Assembly: GCF_900496995.4 (NCBI RefSeq)
Contig: NC_044019.1
Coordinates: forward strand, 806,001 to 870,000
Direction of reading: 5' to 3'
DNA: 64,000 nucleotides
DNA from: Aquila chrysaetos chrysaetos
Taxonomy: Eukaryota; Chordata; Aves; Accipitriformes; Accipitridae
Shown: in pieces, positions 9,001 through 57,931 of the stretch
Numbering within the stretch: position 1 is the stretch's first letter
How the letters are laid out: each line of letters begins with the position of its first letter
Program-made: the position numbers and the translations under genes
Notes under the pieces: model-generated
What the model was told of the DNA's origin: nothing
The model's database searches: none
The model's input: only the letters and a program-made list of their open reading frames with translations

Positions 9001-9636
9001 CTGGAAGGAGGCATGCTGGGGTGAGGAGCAGCGATGCTTTCCGCGTCGCCGGTTTGGGCACTGACCGAAGCACTGCGTGTAGAGCTCCCTGCGCACCGGG
9101 CAGATGCCGGTCTCCCGCGCCTGCCTCTGCTGCAGCCGCAGGTCCAGCTGCTCCTGCAGGTGGACGACGTCCAGGCGGGTGCTGGGCGCGCTGGACACCT
9201 CCTGCACCCACCGCTGGTTCTCCTCCTCCCACTCCCTGTCACGACACAGCACCGGGCCTTACTGGGTGCCCCCCGCCGGCCCGGCCGGGCTCTGCCGGGC
9301 AGGGGCGGGCCCGGGCCCGGCCCCGCTCACCGCGGCGGCAGGATGGCGTTGAGGAGCTCCTGCGGCTGCTTCGCGGACTCGGGGGGGGCAGGGGCGGAGG
9401 GAGGGGGGGGCGGGCGGCGGGGCGGGCGGCGGCGGGGTCAGTTGAGCGAGGGGTGCGGAGAGCAGAGAGCGGGAGGCGCGTAGGTGGGGCGGCGGGTAGC
9501 CGAGGCGCGTCGCCGGCCCGGCCCCGCTCACCCCGGGGGAGCGCTTCTCCGTGCGGCGAGTGACGAGCACCGGCGGGTTGTACCGCAGCAGCGAGTCCGG
9601 CGGCGGGATCATGGCGGCCGCGGCCGCTGTCGCCAT
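6050..9636 (-). CDS. DNALI1: Axonemal dynein light intermediate chain 1 (p28 family)
   Basis: DNALI1 is the p28 light chain of single-headed inner-arm dyneins in motile cilia and sperm flagella. Six minus-strand exons: 9532-9636, 9331-9377, 9066-9235, 8087-8265, 7619-7783 and 6050-6085. All have GT-AG borders and consistent phases, giving 233 residues. Exon 1 encodes MIPPPDSLLRYNPPVLV, matching the family start. An extra in-frame ATG eight codons upstream gives a short Ala-rich leader, so the true start could be the second Met. Exon 3 holds VVHLQEQLDLRLQQRQARET. Exon 4 holds INCAERGLLLLRVRDEI. Exon 5 is a Glu/Lys/Gln-rich coiled coil. Exon 6 encodes only AQLESIIAPNK and the stop. The protein is about 25 residues shorter than human p28 (257-258 residues) because exon 2 (47 bp) lacks the proline-rich linker. 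The 1.5-kb last intron (6086-7618) shows nothing recognisable. Confidence 0.93.
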
Positions 9637-10240
9637 GGCGACGGAGTCTTTGTTGCCCCCTCTCGTGCGCAGGCGCAGAAGCGCCCGAGGGCGGTGCCGG
9701 CCGCCTCGGCGGCGGAAGCGCTTCCGCGCGCGGGCCGGAAGCGGCGCGCACTTCCCTTTGTGGCGGCCGGCGGCGCCATGGAGGAGGCGGCGGCGGCCGA
9801 GCGGCGGCGGGAGCGGCGGCGGCGGCGGGAGGTGGCGGTGAAGGCCGAGAAGCGGAGCCCCCGGCGCTCCGCCTCCCGCTCGGCGCGGGGCAGCCAGTCG
9901 CCGCCGGCCGAGGAGCGGCGGGGCCCGGCCGGGCCGCGCCAGGGCAGCCGCGGCAGGAGCAGCAGGTAGGGCCGCCCGGCGGCTGCGGGCCCCGCGCTGC
10001 GCCCGGCCCGGCCGCGGCTCACGGGGCTCAGTCTTCCTCTCGTTGTTTTTAAGATCGCCCAAGAGGAAGAGCAAGTCCGGGCGGAGGAGCCGGTCCCCGC
10101 GGGGCAGGAGGAGCCGGAGCCCGCACCACGCCGCCGTGAAGGTGAAGCAGGTAAATGGCGCTGTCGGTAGCAGCGAGGCCCGGTCCTGCCCGCCGAGGGG
10201 TTCGCGGGGCCGGGCGCTCTTCCCGGCTCCGCAGCGACAG
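8960..10240. promoter_or_regulatory. CpG island over the DNALI1/SNIP1 divergent start region
   Basis: This stretch is dense in CpG and G+C compared with both flanks. It covers the first three DNALI1 exons and the first two SNIP1 exons. The boundaries are judged by eye and may be off by 100-200 bp. This is the expected form of a shared housekeeping-type promoter. Confidence 0.75.
9629..9777. promoter_or_regulatory. Bidirectional promoter core with X-box-like, NRF1-like and ETS sites
   Basis: Only 141 bp separate the divergent ATG codons of DNALI1 (9634-9636, minus) and SNIP1 (9778, plus). Motifs seen: GTCGCCATGGCGAC at 9629-9642, one mismatch from the RFX X-box and overlapping the DNALI1 start codon; TGCGCAGGCGCA at 9666-9677, one mismatch from an NRF1 site; GCGGAAGCGCTTCCGC at 9712-9727, a perfect palindrome holding two opposed GGAA ETS cores; and another CCGGAAG just after it. 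There is no TATA box. The gene order and motifs fit a shared promoter serving one ciliary and one housekeeping gene. Confidence 0.75.
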
Positions 10241-13689: not shown

Positions 13690-20973
<7,284 letters not shown>

Positions 20974-21755: not shown

Positions 21756-24177
21756 ATTACATGTTTGTCTCTCTTCTCATGTTTTGTTCAGTCCAAAATT
21801 TGACTCCTAGTGCCTTTTTATTCTCCATGTGCTTTTTTATTCTCCATCTGCTTTATGAGGACTTTGCTGGAATTCTTCTACTTCTGCATAGTAGCTCTTC
21901 CTTGTCTCGTGACCCTTCTTGTGCTTTCTTTCCTCTGGTAGACATAACATTGACTACTTGAAAGGATTGCCAGGCACTAATCTCCAGCTGCGTTCCAACT
22001 AATCCCGCTTCAAGGCAGGACTTGGATGTAAGTCAGTTCTTGCTGATACTGGCAGAATGCCCGCAGATAAGGAATGAGCAGTCTGGATTGCCACTGGTTG
22101 AGTACACAGAGAGATGAGTGTTAGGTGCTTTTCACAGTCGCCAGGTCAAGATATCAATGCTGATGTTGAAGTAAGCTTTGCTTTTCTCAAGGTGGTAAAT
22201 AGCTTTTGTTACCAGTGCTGTAATGTATTTGTGTCTTCTTAATGAGTGCTGTGGGAAAAGTTGTATCGCTCGCCTGACAGCGCGCCCAGTGCGTGCATGT
22301 GCACTTGTTACAGCTGAGTGTTCATTCCGTTCTGCTACACCTCTGCTTTCCTGGTGTCTTGGGTCTTTTTCAGCTCCCTCCAGGCAACCCAGTCAGTGCA
22401 GAGCGGTACCGAAGAGTGAAGGCAAATGTGTAGGGCAAAGTTCTCCCTTGTTCTGTTGTCTGGTTCAGGGATCAAGGCAGCTGTGTATTTGTTCACAGTG
22501 GGAGCTGGCTTATCCCGCAGTAGAGTGAGCAGCTGGCACTCTGCTGTCAGGGGCCGATGGCTGCTTATCTGCAGGGGGGTGTCGGGATGTAATGGCTTAA
22601 CGGGAGAGCAGCAAAGCTGTCCTACTTTTTTGTGTTTTAAGTTACAGAGGTTAAATACAGGGGGGGTGGAAGATCTAGGAAACAGCATAAATTCCTAAAA
22701 GGACTTGCTTTTCCATAGTTCTGGAGAAAAGAAGTCATAGCTGATGGTTTTTGATTACTTGGCCTTGGTACAAAAGCAGTTTTTCTCCCACTACTGCTGC
22801 TGTTCCAAAGCAAGGATTGCAAGAGCGCCTGAACTTCAGAGAGTAAAAAATCTTTGCTGCACCTCGTTGACCTCAAGGAAAGCTGCTGTACCTTTTAGGC
22901 CAGAACATTTACCTGCAGAGAAACAGCAAAGGGCTCGTGTAGCCTTGCTCGGAGGCCTGTGTGTACAGGCGTTTTTTGTGGCAAAGTGTCAATCAATCAG
23001 CTCCACTTTCCCTGTGATAGGCATTAGGGGTGCTGCAGGGACAAGGGGAAAAACGCAACCTTTCCTGCCTCCGGCAGTGTTTGTCACTAAAGGAAGGGGA
23101 CAGCCTGTTCTGATGAGCACAGTGTCTGATGGCAGCAGCCCTGGGGAGCCAGGACACTGATCAGGGCAGAAAGCTAAATGGCAAACGCTTGGTTCACAGT
23201 TGAAGGCACCCTGTTCTGCTGATACGCAGCTCTTCCCTCCCAGGTCCTGCTGATGGGCAGCAGCCCTTTGGCTGCCATGAGACAGGTGAGATTAAGAGGC
23301 CGTGGGGCTCTGCGCGGTCTGCCCCAGCTTGTCCCAGAACAAGCACTGATGGCTGAAGCTCTGCAGCAGCAGCTTCCCCGCGGTGTTACTGTGGGGCGGG
23401 GGGGAGGACGGTGGGGGGGGTCTCTGATCACTTTGGGGACATAAGCACCATCACCTACAAGAGTGTCATGAGATGGATGCTGGAGTCTGACTCTGGCAGT
23501 TGTGCCTAAAACTTCTATTTTATTTCTGAAGACTTCTGTTTTAATTCCTAAACAGCCTGAGTGACTAAAGATCCCCAGGATAGCCAGTGCCTGGCCTTGG
23601 ACACAGGAGTCAAAGTGCGCTGCACGGGCTTTTACCTGAATGCTAATGAAAGCTAGAAGTAGTAGTTAAAAATAAATCACAAGTCCTTTGCTTGTAGAAG
23701 ATGAATCTTGAGCAGAGCGAATGAGGGGTGGCAGAGCAGCAACCGTCCTTATGGCCACCAAAGGTAGAGCAGGAGAAACACTAATCCCCTGCGCAGCCTC
23801 GTCACCAAGAGGATTAGGCAGGATTTTATCGAGCCCAAGCAAGCGGCAAGCAGCAGCCGAGAGCTGACACCACGCAGGAGGGGCAGCAGCCACCTGGGCC
23901 ACGTCCAGTGGTGCATCGCCGGGTAAGGGGGCACAGCCAGGGGGGAGCGTGTCCCTGCTGAACACGTGTCCCACCTGCTGGGGTCTGGCCCATGAACGCT
24001 CACCCTCCCTTTTGCGAGCCTGGCACTCGGCGAGCCGGGCTGGACACCAGCATGTGCCGGTGCACCCCGCGGCTGCCACGCGTCCCTCCAGTGTGCGGAG
24101 CGTGGCGCGTGAGCGAGCCAGTGGCTCCCAGGGCCGTGGGCACATCACCGCTCCATCTCCTGGTCTGCAGGGTCCCC
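21756..24177. other. Intergenic, no gene recognised
   Basis: This is the gap between the MEAF6 3' end and the unnamed gene beginning at 24178. G+C rises steadily after about 23200. An 18-19-bp duplication (TTTTTATTCTCCAT units) lies at about 21815-21855. The overlapping open frames on both strands at 23666-24350 look like by-products of high G+C. The last few hundred bases may hold the promoter or 5' exon of the next gene: an acceptor-like CTGGTCTGCAG lies 8 bases before the ATG at 24178. Confidence 0.5.
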
Positions 24178-25887
24178 ATGGGCAGGCAGCGTGGCCCGCC
24201 GGTGCCGAGGTGGAGGCAGCTCCTGCGCGCCGGGTGCTGGCGGCTCCTCTCGCTCTCTGGGACGGTGCTCCGGGGGCTGCGGTGGCTCTGGAGGCTGGTG
24301 TGGGTGGGTACCACGAGGGGTCCCTTCCCCAGGGGCCTTCAAGCACTTGTGTCGGCTCTAAACGTGGCGCGTGCCCAGAACCAGGTGCCGGGGCGTGGGG
24401 TCAGGGGTCTGCCGGGGGTGTACCGCTCTGTACCCGTGGTGCCGGGGGCTGTGGTTCGGTGCGGCCGGGGCAGATGGGGGAGGAGGTCACCACGCCGTCC
24501 GACAGCGTGGCTGGAGGATCGGGACCCTCGTCCTCGGGAGTTGGCTTGAGGCACTGTATGGTTCTGCCCACCGAGAGTGCTGGGGACGTGGGGAACGTTG
24601 CTCCGGGCTCTGCCCTCCCTGGGGCAGGTTTGAGCCTGCCGCTCTCACCACGCGGCTGCCGTCCTCTTCCCCAGTACCTGCTGTTCTGCTACAAGAGCTG
24701 CTGGGACGGCGCCTTCCAGGTCACCGAGGAGGTAACTAACTCACTCCCCCAACGTGCCCCCACGCCACAGGGGCTGCGGAGATTTCTGACTCCCCCCGGG
24801 AGATGGCTGAGCCTGGTGACACGGTCCGTTGGGTGGCCCTGTGGCACCGGCGGGGCTGTAGGTCCCCAGGTCACGGCATGGCAGGGTTCCCCGGTCAGGG
24901 TCGGTGCCAGGGGCCAGCCGGGCTCGGCTGCCCGTGGATATGTCAGTCCCCGCTGTCCGTGGCGGCTTTCAGCTCGGCGTGGTGCTGCAGGCGAATCTGG
25001 AAAGTGGCAGCCAGGGGAGCGAGGAGGAGGAGGAGCAGGATGGGGGCTCCACTTCTGTGCTGGAGCCTGGGCAGGCAGGTGGGTCCCCGGCACGGCGGTG
25101 CGGGTGGGCGGGCGGGGGGTGTCCCTGGTGCGGAGGCCGGGGGGGGGGGGGGGTGTCGCAGGGCGCTGGCGGGAGCTGAGCTGTGGTGCCAGGGCAGTGG
25201 CAGAGCGGCGGCGGTGCGGTGACGCCAGCGAGGCCGTGCTGGAGAGGTTAGAGGCGCTGGAGGCCGACGTCCGCTTCCTCTGCACCGAGCTGGGCGCCGA
25301 GAAGCTGCTGTGGAGCAGCCGGTTCCTGGAGCTGCTGCGGGAACAGCAAGGCCTGCGCCAGCGGGTGAGTCCCCCATGGGGCCCCCAGGCCCCCCCCCCA
25401 GTCCCCTCTGGTACCCTGGACCCTCATGCCCCGTCCCAGCTGCAGGAGCGCCCGCGGCGGTGGGACAGCGGTGACAGCCCCAAGCTGCTGGGGGAAGCGG
25501 AGGACCAAAGTGCCAGTGGGAGCGAGGGAGAGAGCCTGGCAGGTAGCGGCTGGGGGCATTGGGGGGGATGGAGAGCCAGTGGTCAGGGAGGGGGGCCCTG
25601 CCACCTGCAGCCAGAGCTGGGGATGGGGCAACATGTTGAGCTCTGCCACTGGGCAGCACTGGGAGGTACCTGGGAGGACAGGGTGCCAGGGAAGGCTCCC
25701 AGTCCTCTGTACCAGTTGCCAGCAGGAGCCCGGCTGGGCGCTCCTGCACTCAGCAGAGCTCCGGCCATCACTTCCCCTCTCGCCCTTTTGTTCTGTTTAA
25801 GCACGCCAGTGGATGGAGCCACGCTGGCAGCCAGCCCCATGCCCAGGCAGTCTTTTGGGGCCAGCAGCTTCACGACAAGCAGAAAAC
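24178..25887 (+). CDS. Unrecognised small coiled-coil protein gene, six predicted exons
   Basis: I do not recognise this gene. Six open segments join in one frame through GT-AG borders: 24178-24303 (or 24297), 24675-24731, 24973-25078, 25162-25364, 25440-25542 and 25802-25887. The joined frame is 227 residues, still open at the end. Residues 12-55 are rich in Trp/Leu/Arg (LRGLRWLWRLVW, then YLLFCYKSCWDGAF) and could be an amphipathic or poor membrane segment. Residues 74-84 are acidic (GSEEEEEQDGG). Residues 118-168 form a coiled coil with regular Leu spacing (ERLEALEADVRFLCTEL, then RFLELLREQQGLRQR). A Ser/Glu-rich stretch follows. The 3' end is unclear: exon 7 may start at 26084, or the frame may read through to a stop at 26206-26208. 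Small single-pass coiled-coil proteins such as CCDC107 have a vaguely similar layout, but I cannot show homology. Strong points are five matching intron phases. Weak points are the extreme G+C and one poor acceptor. Confidence 0.5.
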
Positions 25888-28800
25888 GTAAGCGAAGGTG
25901 TAAGCGGGGTGTTGGTGAGACGGGAAGGAGCCACATCTCCCTCCCTGCCCAGGCACTGCAGGACACAGGCCAGGACGGCGGAGTCCTGGTTGTGTTCCCA
26001 TGTCCTTGTATGTGCCTCCATCCTTCAGTGCCAGCCAGGCCCTGCCCCGTCCTGCCCCATCCTGCCCAGCCCTGCCTGTTCAGCAGAACTGCAGCCAGTT
26101 CCCAGAAGCAGGAACCAGCCGGGAGGCAGCTCAGGGCAAGCCGCTGTCTCCTGGGCTGCCCAGGGCAGGTCACAGTCACCCCTTGCCCGGGGCCACCCCT
26201 GGGACTGACTGTGCCCTGGGCGGGTTGTCTCTGGTGGAGTCCAGCAAGGAGCATCTTCCTGACCTGCCGCAACTTGTTGGGAGCTTCCAGGAACGAGGAG
26301 TAAGGTCACCGCCAGCTCCGTCACCTTGCACAAGCTGGCGACACCATGGCCACGGATGGATTGCAAAACTCAAGCGCTGCCCCGTTTACTTCCTCCTTGG
26401 CCAGTTGAGCCCCTCTGTCAGCTGCTCCGCATGCATTGCAACTCTCGGCCGGCTCCTTGTGTCAGCTCTCAGCGGCCGGGCGGGGAGGGGGAACCCTCTC
26501 TCTGGGGGGGGGCTGAGGGGCCCTCGTCCCCAGAGAATGGCTCAGCCGGGGATGCTGTGCCGCAGGAGTGCCAGCCCCGAGTGGAGCAGGCTCTGAGCTG
26601 CACGGGCCACGTCTGAGCAAACATGCCTCTGCCCCTCCAAAGCGCTGTGTTGGGTCCGTCAGCCCCCAGCCCAGCAAAGGCAGAGGAAGCAGCTGGGGGC
26701 GGGGGGGACTGGAGGAGGGTGCTGAACCTCCCACCCCCAGGAGAGCGGACCGAGCAGGGCCACAGGCCGTCCAAATGCGACAGGATCAGCCTTGGGCTCC
26801 CATGCAAGACCTGCGGGTGAAGGGCCACCCTGTGCCCAAGCCCTGGTCCAGCATCAGGGGGCTGCGTGGTGGCTCCCACCCTGCCACAGGCTCCCCCCGC
26901 CACTGCCAGCCACTGCTCTGCTGCTGTAAAATACAGGCGGCCACTTTCCACTTGGCTGTGTGTGCTTGGTCTTTCCGCTGCACGGGCTGGGACAGCTGCA
27001 CCACTGCTGCTCTGCAAAGACCCCGGTCCTGCAGCTCTTTGGGGAGAGGGTGCGAAGACGAGCTCTTGCTGAGGCAGATTGGGGACCGGTCCCCACCCCA
27101 TGGCAGCTGGGGCACGGAACGGTGTGTACCGCAGCGGTGATTCAGTCAGGGAAGCGTGCATTGCAAACGTGAGCCGTGCTGCTGAAGGGAGCATGTGGCA
27201 GCAGCACTTCCCGCCTGGGAGATAATCCTGCCTTGCGAGAAGGCTATGCAAACCAGCCGCTCCTTGCCCAGAGATGGGCAAACGCTTTTCATCGCTGTTC
27301 CCACTGCTTAAAACACATCTCGCCAGCCCTGTGTGTGCAGCCCTTCCCTGCAGGCCCTGGCACTGCACTGTCTGCCACCATCAGCTGCCTGCACCTGGGC
27401 AGCAGTGACCCCGCAAGTGCCAGGTGAAGGGGGAACGAAGGACTCGTTGGCAACTGGCTTATGGCAAAGGCTGCAGCTGCCCCTGAGAGAAGGCAGCCAC
27501 TAATTCAGGGGCATCTGCCCTCTGGCACAGGCAGTAGAAGGCTCCTGCCATCACTGCCCGCGAGACCCACAGGCGCAGCTCTCCGGGAGCCCGGCGATGC
27601 CACTGCACACCTACACCAAGACTTGGCCCGTGCATTAGGCAGGGAACAAAGCGCTGAACAAATCTGTGTCCAGGACTGCTGTGCCCTCCCCAAGCAGGGC
27701 AGCTGCCCTGATCCACCACACAGGCAGGCGTCTTCCTCTGGGACAGGCCAGAGGAAACTCCAGTTTCTCCTGCCTTCTCTCCAGCTGGTGCTGGTTTTCA
27801 CTTGGGGCAAGTGCAAAGAGCCCCCCATGGCACACAGCTGAGGGTCTGCTAGTGACCCTGCTCCTCACAGTCCTGCAGCCCTGAGAACTGACCTCCAGGC
27901 CTAAGGCTTTTTTTTTTTTTTTTTTTTAACTTTCATTCTGGTTTTGTTGCCAGCACCAGGTAGACTTGTCTGATGCTGCTTGGGAATTAACCCCGCAACA
28001 CTGTGGAATGGCTGCCATTAACCTCATCCTGCTGCCATCCCCAGAGCCCTGGAGAGCACATGGAAACCATCTCCACAGCCCCAACTGCAGCCTCTGCACC
28101 CACCCCACAGGGCTGGCTGGGTGCAGGGACTGGGGACAGGCTCCTACAGTGAGCAGGGATCGTTCCTCCCAACATGCCCATGCAACACCCCACATCAGGG
28201 AACTGATGCAATGCAAATAACAGCAGCCTGACTCATCCTGCACCAACCTGGCTCCTGCACGGTGTTTGAGGTGGGACAGCCCCACGCTTCATAGAAATAC
28301 CAAAATAAATCAGGTCCTGCAAATGAGCCACTCCTGGGTCCCTGCTGCAGCAAAACCCCAGCTCCAAACTGACCATCCCCTCTCCTGCAGAATCACAGCA
28401 GCATCCACGCAGAGAGACCTCAGGAGCACCAGTGATGCCAGGCAGCAGCTTTGCAGCGAAGTGACAAGGTCCCGGCCCTGCTGCAGCCGCAGCTCAGCTC
28501 TCCTGAAGCAATCCACAGGGCTGTGCTGGAAATCCCCTGACAGCAGCTCAGCCACTCTGCCCTGGACAGGGTTTAGGAGGTGGAGGGTGAAATAAAGCAG
28601 CATTAGCTACGTTCACCGGCTCTTCCTCCCCACTGGAGCAGCCCCCCCCGTGGGTGGGCAGCCCCCGCTGCAGCACTCTCACCACGCTGCCTCTGTGTGA
28701 GGCAACAGCTGCCCCACAGGCTGAGGAAACCTTTCCCCTGGGCCAACACGCCATGCAAATCCTCCTGACCTATTGCTCAACCAGATGCTGTATTTACTCC

Positions 28801-52220: not shown

Positions 52221-55200
52221 TGCTCAAGCGCAAAGCCGCAGAACCGAATCTGTTTAACAGGACCATAAAAATATCCATGCTAATAACCTGTTGCAGCTTA
52301 AGGCATTTAGACAATTCTCTACCTTTTCGTAATTCTTTGTGTTAATAATTAAATGACCTTTACAATGGCAGTGGGTGGGAAATTTCAGTAAAGCTGAATA
52401 GCAATTCGGCAACTGCTAAAGAATATTGAAAATCAAGATGAAAAAAACTGACTTCGATGTTAAGGGATGAGGAAGAAAAATCAAGTGTGAAGCTGGAAGT
52501 TTGTTCTTCGTTTGCACTGATTTACAGATCTTGTTGGGCAGAATAAATATGGGAGCACTAAAAACCCAACAGATCAGTGAACGACCCCCCCCGTGCACAG
52601 GAACCTCGACTGGCCTCAGCCCCCTCTGTTCTTTATACCCAACGGTCAGAACATCTGCTCCAGAGCAAGGGACTCCACAGCAAGGCAGGTGACACAAGGT
52701 TTGCTTAACAGGGAACTTTGCCATGACCAGCAGCTGTTGGAGAGCGGCTGGACTGGGACTGCCGAGGGCTTAGGTCCTTCCTGAGAAGCCGGTTAAATCG
52801 TCTGTGTGTGCTCACAGACCAGGTCTGAAAAGCCAGGGATGGAGAGGAAGGTGCTGGTCCCTCTGCCCCGTATCCACTTGCCAAGCAGCAAATGTCCCCT
52901 CTGCCCTTCTCGCTTTGGGCACTGATTTCCCTCTCACCCGTGCAACACCGGGGCGCCTTCACGACTGACCGGAGGCCGTGGCAATGGTTTCATGGTGCTG
53001 GCCATCGTCAGGGCTCAACGAGTATCCTCACACCTGGGCAAAAGGACCACTCTCCTTTTGTCAGCACCCCTGCTTGCCAGGGGGGACAGCACGGCCAGGG
53101 ACAGGGCTGGAGGACATGGAGCTGGAGGACACGGGGCTGGAGGCACATGCACCCTCCCGCGTGCTCTGCAGCGGGTCCCGGAGGGAAGCAGCGGGTGGGT
53201 GGCAGAGGCCAGGCCAGGCAGAGCCCGTGCTGTCCTGGGAGAGGAGCTATCGCCGCGCAGCGCTGCCGGCCGCCAGCCCAGCCTCCCTCGCCAGTATCGC
53301 CGCTTTGCAGCCTTGCGTTGGATTTGATCCCCTACAATACATGGGATTTATCTCTCTCACTTTCATGTGCCTTTAAGGAAACACCACTTTTTATCTCGTT
53401 TCTGCTGCTTTTTATCATCACAAAGGGTTTTTAATGAAACGAGAAAGCGTCTGTTTCTGCAGGCCGGGGAGCAGCGTGGGTAATTTCAATATAAAACAAA
53501 CAAGGCGGCTTTCAAAATTAAAATTTTATGTGTGGCATTTTCTCATTTAACGGAATGCACAAAGATGGGCAAAACCAATTAACAGGAGGTTGAGACTCAG
53601 CACTCGGCAAAATTAAACAACGGGACTCTGCAAAAGGAATGATTTGTTCAAAGGGAACTGGAGAAAGGGATGGAGAGGAGGAGAGGAAGCAAGGCTGCTC
53701 TTGAAAATTCACCACCTCTTAAAAAAATAAATGCAAACAAATCTGCATCTTACCTCACATTCCTCAGATGGGCTTCAGAGCCCCACAGACCAGGTGGAAA
53801 CACTGGGGAATGGCAAAGATAAGTCTGGGAACGCCAGCTTCAGGGACAGCTGGCAAAGTCCTAAGTCAGGGGTCAATTGCTGCGAGCAGCGGGAGAGGTC
53901 GGCTCCCAAAATATACCTGCCCCAGCCAGGCAGCTGACGCAGGGTGCAAGGCTCCTCCGGACACCCTTCAGGAGAGTGCTGCTTCCTTCCCCAGATTTCC
54001 CTCTGCTTCCAAGTCCTCTCCCACTAAGAAAAAAAATAATCAATTCCAGCAGAAGTTACACTGGAGACAAAAAGGAAACAACGGTGGAGAGGAAGAAGGT
54101 GGCTGAGCAGGAGAAGAAGGGCAGCGATGCTGCCACCTGCCCCATGCATTCCCCGGGCAACCGCGCTGCTCCTGTGCAGGGCTGTGATTAGCAGTGCGGT
54201 GAGTGACACCGTGGGGGGCTCCAGATGAACCATCTTAAAAGAGCGGAAGAGGTGGAATTAAGGCTAATCACTCATTATCAACCTGGGGGCTGTGCCTGCA
54301 GAGTTCAAGATTTACAGTCCCTGGGAGCAAGTCTGAGTCGGAGTCTGATTGCTGCAATCACTGCAAAATGGGGATGGGGCTTATTTGCCTGTTTTGCACA
54401 TAATTTGTGGGGTGAAGTGCGGAATTCTTTAAGGTGGCAAGGTGTCTGGACATATTTAACCAGCTATTTAGCCCTGCTGGGCCAGAGCAGGGGCTGTGAG
54501 TCCTGCCTTGCAGCATCACACAAGGGAGCGAGTCAGGCGTTTATTTCAGGTGTGCCGCCCTTTGCCGGAGCAGCAGAGATCACAGTGGTAGAGAGTCCCT
54601 CTGCCTGCTGAATAAAATATGGAGCAGCATTATTTACTGTGCTTCCAGCTCTGGTTTCCACAGAGCGACCGACAGAGGTGGCAAAAGTCACTTGTCAACA
54701 AGGGGCAGCAGCAGTCCAGCCCCAGGCAGGAGCTTGCTCCTTGCATGTAGCAGCTCTCAGCTCCATGCCTTGAAAGAAGAGGTGATTCCTAGGAGGAAGA
54801 ACTCGGGAAAGGATGTGCTGAGCAGCTGTTTGGTGAACCCACAGCAGCCTGGGCAGAAAGAGGTTATTAGTGTTTTACACCCACTTATGTGGGAGACAGA
54901 GCTAGTGTAGCACTATTTCAGCCCAAAGCTATTCATGACCGACGGTCTGGCGGTGCCAGATGAAAGCGGGGAGCCCCAGGCCTGGGTTTGGAGGGGAACA
55001 CCAGCTCCCAGCCAGCCTGCTTGCTGCTGCCAGGCAGCCGGGGAATTGTCTGAGGGTGCTGGCAGGCGCCAGCCCAGCCTGGCCACAGGAGCACCAGAAG
55101 AGCCGCACGGGGCTTGAGGCGTGCTGGGGCACGGGCACGTAGCAGGAGCTCTCCTGTGCCTGGGAAATGAAACTTTTCACTGAAAGGAGAGAAGAAAGCA

Positions 55201-57360
55201 AGCCTGTGGAAAGAGAGGAGTAAGCTGCCAAGCCAGGTAATCCATCTCTGGAGCGTCTGTGTCAAGATGATTCATGTCTTCCAATTTACTTCCAGCTCAA
55301 ATCTAAAGTAAATCAGCCCAGATTGTTCCCCGCCCCGTGCAGCAGGACACAACACCGGGGTGCGGAGGAACATCCCACCCATCCATCTCGCTGGTCTCGC
55401 AGCTCCTGACTTTAATGCTTGTCCTACGCAATTAGAGCCAAACTGTTTGTTTGTTGATAGGTGAAGGGAGGAGAGGAGGTGCCCTGGGAAGGGAGATGGG
55501 ATGTGAAAGGGGATGATGAGAATGGATTTTTTTTTAATATGCTGTTCAGTTGCTTTTCTGCAGCAATTCCTTTCACATGAGAATAGCCCAGGAGGAAAAT
55601 TATCAGTATTAGTTCCCACCTGTAATAAGAAAGTTGTCCAAAGTCTTAATTACCTTTTTGAACTACTTACAGTGCTCCTGCCTCCTTACCGTGGCCTTTT
55701 TGTCAGCCCTGAGCCATGCCCACACCACCTCTGCCAGCAGCCCAGTGCCAGCCCCCAGTGCCGCAGAGGGATCTGTTCCACCGGCGTGGAAGGGCAGCAC
55801 CGGAGCGGCTCGGTGTGCTCAGGACATCCCTCCGCAGAGCCGCTGGCAGGGAGCCGGACAGCACCTGTGCCCGGCACCCCGGCACAGCCTCCCTGGCACA
55901 GCCCGCTCTTGCCCCGGGGATTCCGTTGCGTGTGGGGGACTGACACCCTGCCCGGCCCAAACCGCGGGGCTCTGTGCCCACCGTGCCCCGGGCGCAGGAG
56001 CGGGTTGATGCAGGTGGAGGGCTGGGAGCCCCGTCCTGGCAGCTCCCCCGGCTCTCGCCTCCCCCAGGTGCCTCTGCTCTGTTTCCAAAGAGCCCACGGA
56101 AAGGAGTATAGTGTATAGTATAGGAACTATATAGGTTCCTATCCGAACCGCTGCTGAGGTGATGCCCAAATGCAGCCCCCACCTGCGCTGCCCGGCTGCG
56201 GGAGGCGGATGGGCCCTGGCACAGCCCCAGCCCCGCTCCCCGTGTTTGCCCCGGGAGGTGGGTGTGCGGGCGCTGGGCCCCTGCGTGACACGGGGTGCAG
56301 GACACGCTGCGGGAGGGCACGAGCAGAGAGGTGATGCCGGTGACACTGTCCCGGTGTCCCATCCCTGCGCAGCCCAGGGTGGAGATGCCCTGCTTTGGTG
56401 AGAGGCCATAAATCCATCCAGGGACTTCTCGAAAGGAGAAGCTGCAAAACAAAACAAAGCCAGGCGGCTGCTCCCCGGCCATTTCCTTATACTGACATCT
56501 TGCACTTTGTTACAGATAATTACTGACGAAGGGGCCCGGCAATAATTTGAAGGCAAGGTATGAGGTCCCCCAATCCCACCTTCAGTGGAAGCAGTCTGGT
56601 TGGGTTAATTTTTGTTTATAATCAGTTTGAGGGCAATTTCATTTTCAAGTTATTGATTTGAATTTCATGGCGTTTGAAAAACACTGGAAAAAAGATTTTA
56701 TCTCTTTAAGGAAAAATGTTGAAAGAATGCATGCCTTGGCCTCAGGGCTTTTAAAAATAAGTTTGTTTACATATAAACTGGGAATTTTGGGCTAAATATG
56801 AGCTGACTGTAACATCAGTAATTTTGCAGTATGCTGAATGTAAAACATGACCCACGAGGGTCACACGCACGCAGAATTTCCCAGGTCTGTGGTCGGTGAC
56901 AGGGAGATTTAGCCATCTTGCTGCAGAAAGCTGAGGGAAAGACAAGCAACAGAAGAGGGTTTAGGGGATGCAAGGGAGTTTCAGCTTCATCTGCTGAACT
57001 CGCCTCCACTCCACAGTCATTTAAATGTAAAAATTTGTAGGTCTGACTGTTTCTCACTGGTGTGAAGCACCAGCACCACTGAGCCCGGTCAGGCTGCTCC
57101 TGTTCTCATTTTCTGGCTATCGGGAGTAATTGCGGCTGCACAGTTTCGGCCATGAGTGGCAATCAGCCACAATTGTCTGCACGGAGCGCAGGCTGGAAGG
57201 GTCGAAGCCACCAGCCCTGCAGCAGCTGCCCATTGACAGTGTCTGTGGTAGCAGGGCTGGGAAAAACCAGCGTGGGACGGAGGGTCACCAGCCCTCCCCG
57301 AGGCATCAGCCCCACAGCAGCCTGAGCGCAGGCAGCAGAGAGCGAGGCAGAGCTTGCCTC
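52221..57360. other. Intergenic, no gene recognised
   Basis: GC-rich and AT-rich blocks alternate. AT-rich islands at 52240-52480, 53330-53620 and 56570-56850 have the look of non-coding regulatory elements. A G+C-rich block lies at about 55700-56060. A small overlapping inverted-repeat structure lies at 56106-56150. No gene model can be supported. Confidence 0.5.
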
Positions 57361-57931
57361 AGCTCCCGAGCCCCCCTGGCACCCCTCACTCCAGCCCCCG
57401 AGTCCCCCGGCACCCCTCGCCCCAGCCCCTGAGCCCCCCTGGCACCCCTCACTCCAGCCCCCGAGTCCCCTGGCACCCCTCGCTCCAGCCCCTGAGCCCC
57501 CCTGGCACCCCTCACTCCAGCCCCCGAGTCCCCCGGCACCCCTCGCTCCAGCCCCCGAGCCCCCCTGGCACCCCTCACTCCAGCCCCCGAGTCCCCCGGC
57601 ACCCCTCGCCCCAGCCCCTGAGCCCCCCTGGCACCCCTCACTCCAGCCCCCGAGTCCCCTGGCACCCCTCGCTCCAGCCCCCGAGCCCCCCTGGCACCCC
57701 TCACTCCAGCCCCCGAGTCCCCCGGCACCCCTCGCTCCAGCCCCCGAGCCCCCCTGGCACCCCTCACTCCAGCCCCCGAGTCCCCCGGCACCCCTCGCTC
57801 CAGCCCCCGAGCCCCCCTGGCACCCCTCACTCCAGCCCCCGAGTCCCCCAGCACCCCTCGCTCCAGCCCCTGAGCCCCCCGGCACCCCTTGCTCCAGCCC
57901 CTGAGCCCCCGGCACTTCTCGCTCCAGCCCC
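57361..57931. repeat. Minisatellite, 63-bp unit made of 32- and 31-bp halves
   Basis: The marker GAGTC recurs with its AGTC at 57401, 57464, 57527, 57590, 57653, 57716, 57779 and 57842, exactly 63 bp apart each time. Each unit contains two related halves: GAGC6TGGC... ending CACTCCAGC5 (32 bp) and GAGTC5GGC... ending CGCTCCAGC5 (31 bp). Variants also recur at 189 bp: CGCCCCAGCCCCTGAG at 57419 and 57608, and GAGTCCCCTGG at 57463 and 57652. This shows a three-unit block was duplicated. The last copies are shortened and diverged. The unit is 21 codons long, so frames stay open on both strands. All C-runs are on the + strand. Confidence 0.95.

Follow-up and report, generated by a model that had tools for sequence, protein, structure and literature searches.

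The closest described parallels to the locus reported here are the 'hidden' GC-rich genes of birds, such as those for chicken leptin and TNF-alpha. To judge from the portions of that literature consulted, these genes resemble our candidate in having short, very GC-rich exons and introns of the kind that annotation misses. They differ in that their vertebrate orthologues are known, whereas none can be named for the candidate, and in that the candidate lies in a window (the whole 64,000-nucleotide stretch of Aquila chrysaetos chrysaetos DNA analysed here, from whose first base positions are counted) without assembly gaps, on a 30.6 Mb contig of a genome of 1.234 Gb in 144 contigs. A second parallel is the descriptive class of small membrane-anchored coiled-coil proteins, whose parts come in the same order as those of the predicted product; against this likeness, the candidate has no sequence match in Pfam or the PDB, and the hydropathy of its hydrophobic stretch is low for a segment that spans the membrane.

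The locus carries a coding signature and a complete, splice-compatible reading frame. Our preferred reading, to which we assign a probability of roughly 0.6, is that the interval between MEAF6 and ZC3H12A contains a real single-copy gene on the + strand, with five coding exons and a predicted product of 181 residues that would be a membrane-associated coiled-coil protein. The surprise is moderate, since GC-rich genes without a name have turned up in birds before. If the gene proves to be expressed and conserved, an unnamed protein would join the bird gene set beside the immune regulator ZC3H12A, and the result would suggest that finished bird assemblies may still hide orphan genes in GC-rich intergenic stretches.

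Genomic setting and database searches

The placement claimed in the original prediction was confirmed with Pfam on both sides. MEAF6 lies upstream of the candidate on the + strand (NuA4 match at 14723-14848) and ZC3H12A lies downstream on the - strand, where pieces of its RNase domain and its C-terminal domain were matched. Farther upstream is DNALI1, on the - strand (axonemal dynein light chain at 9061-9240). Within 9061-9700 this gene and the start of a + strand gene, which we take to be SNIP1, stand head to head within a single GC-rich island, a layout that resembles a shared promoter. In a table of human OMIM genes, ZC3H12A, MEAF6 and SNIP1 are successive entries; human LINC01137 is reported to have a promoter in common with ZC3H12A and so sits on the other side of that gene. 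Around the candidate (24000-25249, in 250-base steps) G+C runs at 0.65-0.75 and the CpG observed/expected ratio at 0.61-0.72, and a search of the bird's own genome found 23690-24177 to be unique. Rfam at gathering scores matched nothing within the window. Two tandem repeats lie well downstream, one of a 63-base GC-rich unit at 57360-57931 (9.1 copies, 95% matches, several frames open) and one of a 15-base unit at 53106-53149 (2.9 copies).

Pfam yielded no family for the candidate at E<=10, and three control proteins from the window were all recognised in the same kind of search. The PDB held no relative, its single match (E 0.54) being taken as chance, and the genome itself held no second copy, two weak off-locus matches (E 0.11 and 4.6) being read in the same way. 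Pattern searches with exon 4 gave 593 matches in bacterial and archaeal contigs and 81 in viral contigs, none of which was confirmed. Five peptide strings from the candidate did not occur in a literature search, publications that name its neighbours do not describe a gene at its place, and the main text of those parts of the literature on hidden GC-rich bird genes that were consulted names neither MEAF6, ZC3H12A nor SNIP1.

These results bear on the strongest alternative, which is compatible with our own explanation: that a real gene is present without being a new one, either because bird annotations already list it by a LOC number or some other name, or because it is the unrecognised orthologue of a vertebrate gene. 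Automatic annotation pipelines commonly predict genes of this kind, and the candidate may already carry such an annotation. The missing Pfam and PDB matches say little here, since vertebrate protein sets lay outside those searches; they nevertheless count to some degree against a known relative, as does the silence of the literature on the neighbours. We give this alternative somewhat less than even odds. Rather unlikely, in our judgement, is the proposal that we are dealing with an orphan gene for a small membrane-associated coiled-coil protein kept in birds, and perhaps in reptiles generally, which is absent from mammals, belongs to no described family and was overlooked through its extreme G+C.

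Coding signal and unguided exon chaining

All six segments of the original prediction are present where it put them, with AG/GT borders, one open frame and intron phases 0,0,1,0,1. The argument drawn from them, that such phase agreement is unlikely by chance, did not hold up. When 23900-26100 was shuffled 200 times by dinucleotides, 139 of the shuffles allowed chains of at least six in-frame segments, and the real sequence of this region allows in-frame chains of eight segments on the + strand and three on the - strand. Stops are rare at the locus because its G+C is so high (a single stop-free frame extends over 811 codons, from 23868 to 26303); with six-segment chains so often available in shuffles, phase agreement is therefore hardly evidence.

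Better evidence comes from a codon-position test that was not part of the first reading and that we applied to segments 1-5 in their proposed frames. These comprise 185 codons, with G+C of 0.72/0.50/0.88 at their first, second and third positions. Five background pools (local flanks, local introns, the window from 44 to 64 kb, 40 kb of adjoining DNA, and loci L009 and L010) were sampled 20,000 times each, and no draw reached this contrast. A second measure, the frame contrast, adds up over the five segments how far the log-likelihood of the proposed frame exceeds that of its best competitor. It amounts to 117 bits under a noncoding model trained on local sequence, a value that 0 of 4,000 draws reached in each pool. 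In 8, 24, 10, 14 and 14 of 4,000 draws, pool by pool, every one of the five segments was best in frame. In GC-rich coding sequence of this genome, G+C is high at codon position 3 and low at position 2: eight kinase matches have 0.72-0.93 and 0.30-0.44, respectively. The two highest-scoring + strand stretches within 23800-26300 are segments 4 (25.8 bits) and 2 (14.6 bits); the top stretch of the - strand, with 15.3 bits, lies antisense to segment 4.

A program that picks the best exon chain unguided, and so allows for freedom in the choice of borders, gave mixed results. A first run used generic amino-acid frequencies, its background being trained on the very sequence under test, and missed the candidate: it scored 23900-26100 at 10.9 bits, and the best of 200 shuffles reached 15.1. 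A second run, for which the eight kinase matches supplied base frequencies per codon position (4,482 bases), rebuilt exons 1-4 at the claimed places, differing only in an end of exon 1 six bases earlier (24297), and continued to 25802-25887. This chain scores 45.0 bits, compared with maxima of 26.3 bits in 1,000 shuffles, 28.1 bits in a further 5,000, and 37.9 bits in 2,996 order-2 simulations (4 of 3,000 yielded no chain). The second run weighs less than a planned test would, because its model was chosen after the first had failed.

For comparison, a benchmark was scored with the same program: 318 window-strands, each 2,201 bases long, of which 54 had G+C of at least 0.58. The candidate's top score, obtained for a chain with proposed upstream exons, was 47.0 bits, which is near the 47.2 bits of a benchmark window that we ascribe, by its place, to the first exons of ZC3H12A, and below the 64.6 bits of DNALI1. 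It is far lower than the best kinase windows, which reach up to 169 bits under a model trained on those same kinase exons. Seventeen other windows scored at least 28.9 bits, and they comprise kinase loci, MEAF6, DNALI1, the putative ZC3H12A first exons and a stretch of locus L049, presumably the start of GNL2. Two of the kinase-locus windows are antisense to the coding strand (L028; 41.6 and 31.6 bits), and the candidate stands just slightly above the first of them.

On this evidence we consider it improbable that the locus contains no coding gene and is instead a GC- and CpG-rich stretch, or a noncoding transcript, with chance frames and splice-like borders. The ease with which open frames and in-frame chains arise here would suit that explanation, as would the miss by the generic chainer and the weak splicing signals of exons 1, 4 and 5, but neither the codon-position signal in draws from the five pools nor the chain score in shuffles and simulations was matched. 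Segments 1-4 look like real coding exons and are best explained by a multi-exon coding gene.

Proposed exon structure and gene boundaries

The multi-exon gene of the original prediction is thus retained in its first four segments, which carry both the codon-position signal and the unguided chain; its fifth is uncertain and the frame given for its sixth is not supported. Segment 6 scores -22.5 bits in that frame against +3.2 bits in the one ending in TAA, and given the better frame, segment 4 must join the last exon directly. With segment 5 skipped in this way, the frame is complete from ATG to stop and encodes 181 residues, or 179 with the other donor of exon 1. The proposed gene would thus consist of exons 1-4 and the last exon of Table 1.

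Table 1. Exons of the candidate gene and one further segment (window coordinates).
Feature	Position	Strand	G+C at codon positions 1/2/3	Frame	Remarks
Exon 1	24178-24303	+	0.67/0.64/0.95	best by 15.4 bits	starts with ATG; basic N-terminus rich in Trp, Leu and Arg
Exon 2	24675-24731	+	0.47/0.37/1.00	best by 28.6 bits	YLLFCYKSCWDGAFQVTEE; hydrophobic stretch ends here
Exon 3	24973-25078	+	0.81/0.43/0.77	best by 20.7 bits	acidic linker
Exon 4	25198-25364	+	0.78/0.45/0.91	only stop-free frame of three	predicted coiled-coil helix
Segment 5	25440-25542	+		best of three by 13.1 bits	possible alternative exon, uncertain
Proposed last exon	25802-25891	+		phase 0 from exon 4; +3.2 bits	TAA at 25889-25891; acceptor 5.5 bits

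The junctions are of uneven quality when scored with a simple matrix. Exon 2, which was found unguided, has good sites on both sides (acceptor 4.6, donor 5.0 bits). The donor of exon 1 is weak (0.1-1.2 bits), and the alternative in-frame donor is the one that gives the end found by the chainer. Exon 3 (acceptor -1.4, donor 4.6 bits) belongs to the unguided chain and is lost under stricter acceptor limits. The acceptor of exon 4 is very poor (-8.2 to -8.9 bits) and its donor reaches 4.8 bits; a start at 25162 was rejected, its acceptor scoring -14.4 bits. The intron preceding this exon contains a run of 15 G (25139-25153), in which a sequencing error in length is possible. The chain depends here on the acceptor limit. 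At -12 bits exon 4 begins at 25252, whereas at -6 and -3 bits it is either shortened or lost and exon 3 disappears as well; 25290 is the other start obtained for exon 4.

Segment 5 was left out of the unguided chain. Its coding score is -1.5 bits and its donor scores about 0.0 bits, and its inclusion pushes the last exon into the frame at -22.5 bits; it may be an alternative exon. Of the last exons listed to follow it, 26741-26820 alone totals above zero across more than a handful of codons (+2.7 bits; AATACA at 26930), and we did not adopt it. A last-exon start at 25810 in phase 1 was also rejected (-12.4 bits).

The gene ends are not fixed, as wider searches add further exons on both sides: 23253-23285 and 23768-23922 at the 5' end and, in one search, 27385-27423 at the 3' end. 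The added upstream exon at 23768-23922 is open, with a GTAAGG donor and G+C of 0.50/0.58/0.78 by codon position, and has no match in Pfam.

More improbable still than the absence of a gene is the possibility that a former gene is decaying in this lineage, with its codon signature kept and some junctions and the 3' end nonfunctional. The poor acceptor of exon 4, the weak donor of exon 1 and the unclear last exon are what such decay would leave, but exons 1-4 contain no in-frame stop and join into the complete 181-residue frame, and weak acceptors also occur in functional short GC-rich introns. That the exons are an alternative downstream end of MEAF6, with which they share a strand and whose C-terminal exon we take to lie at about 20453, seems very improbable even though the open frame extends upstream of the ATG to 23962, given the candidate's own ATG in exon 1, an AATAAA at 23671 that could terminate MEAF6 earlier, and the increase in G+C and CpG near 24000, which is like the start of a separate gene. 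A separate, intact gene remains our preferred reading, with the generic chainer's miss, the exon 4 acceptor, the exon 1 donor, the unfixed ends and the lack of a family match as the points against it; its transcription, like its exact ends, we infer.

The predicted protein

By charge, the predicted product has a basic N-terminus rich in Trp, Leu and Arg (residues 1-61, net charge +7) and an acidic stretch (residues 62-96, net charge -8). The product would run from this N-terminus through a short hydrophobic stretch and an acidic linker to a coiled-coil helix, and the order of these parts suggests a membrane-surface anchor joined to a dimerising coil. Most likely, the N-terminus would rest on the membrane and the coil would pair with itself or with a partner, making the protein a small tether or scaffold. 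Against such a reading stand the top hydropathy value, which over 19 residues is 0.94 (residues 29-47, with a basic flank) and thus low for a membrane-spanning helix, and a break in the predicted fold of exon 4. Exons 2 and 4 offer short, distinctive probes for other genomes. The exon 4 product is plausibly a coiled coil: folded as a single sequence it is predicted to be mostly helical (mean pLDDT 77.9), with the break at about residues 31-40, and 67% of the a and d positions in the heptad register of the helix are hydrophobic.
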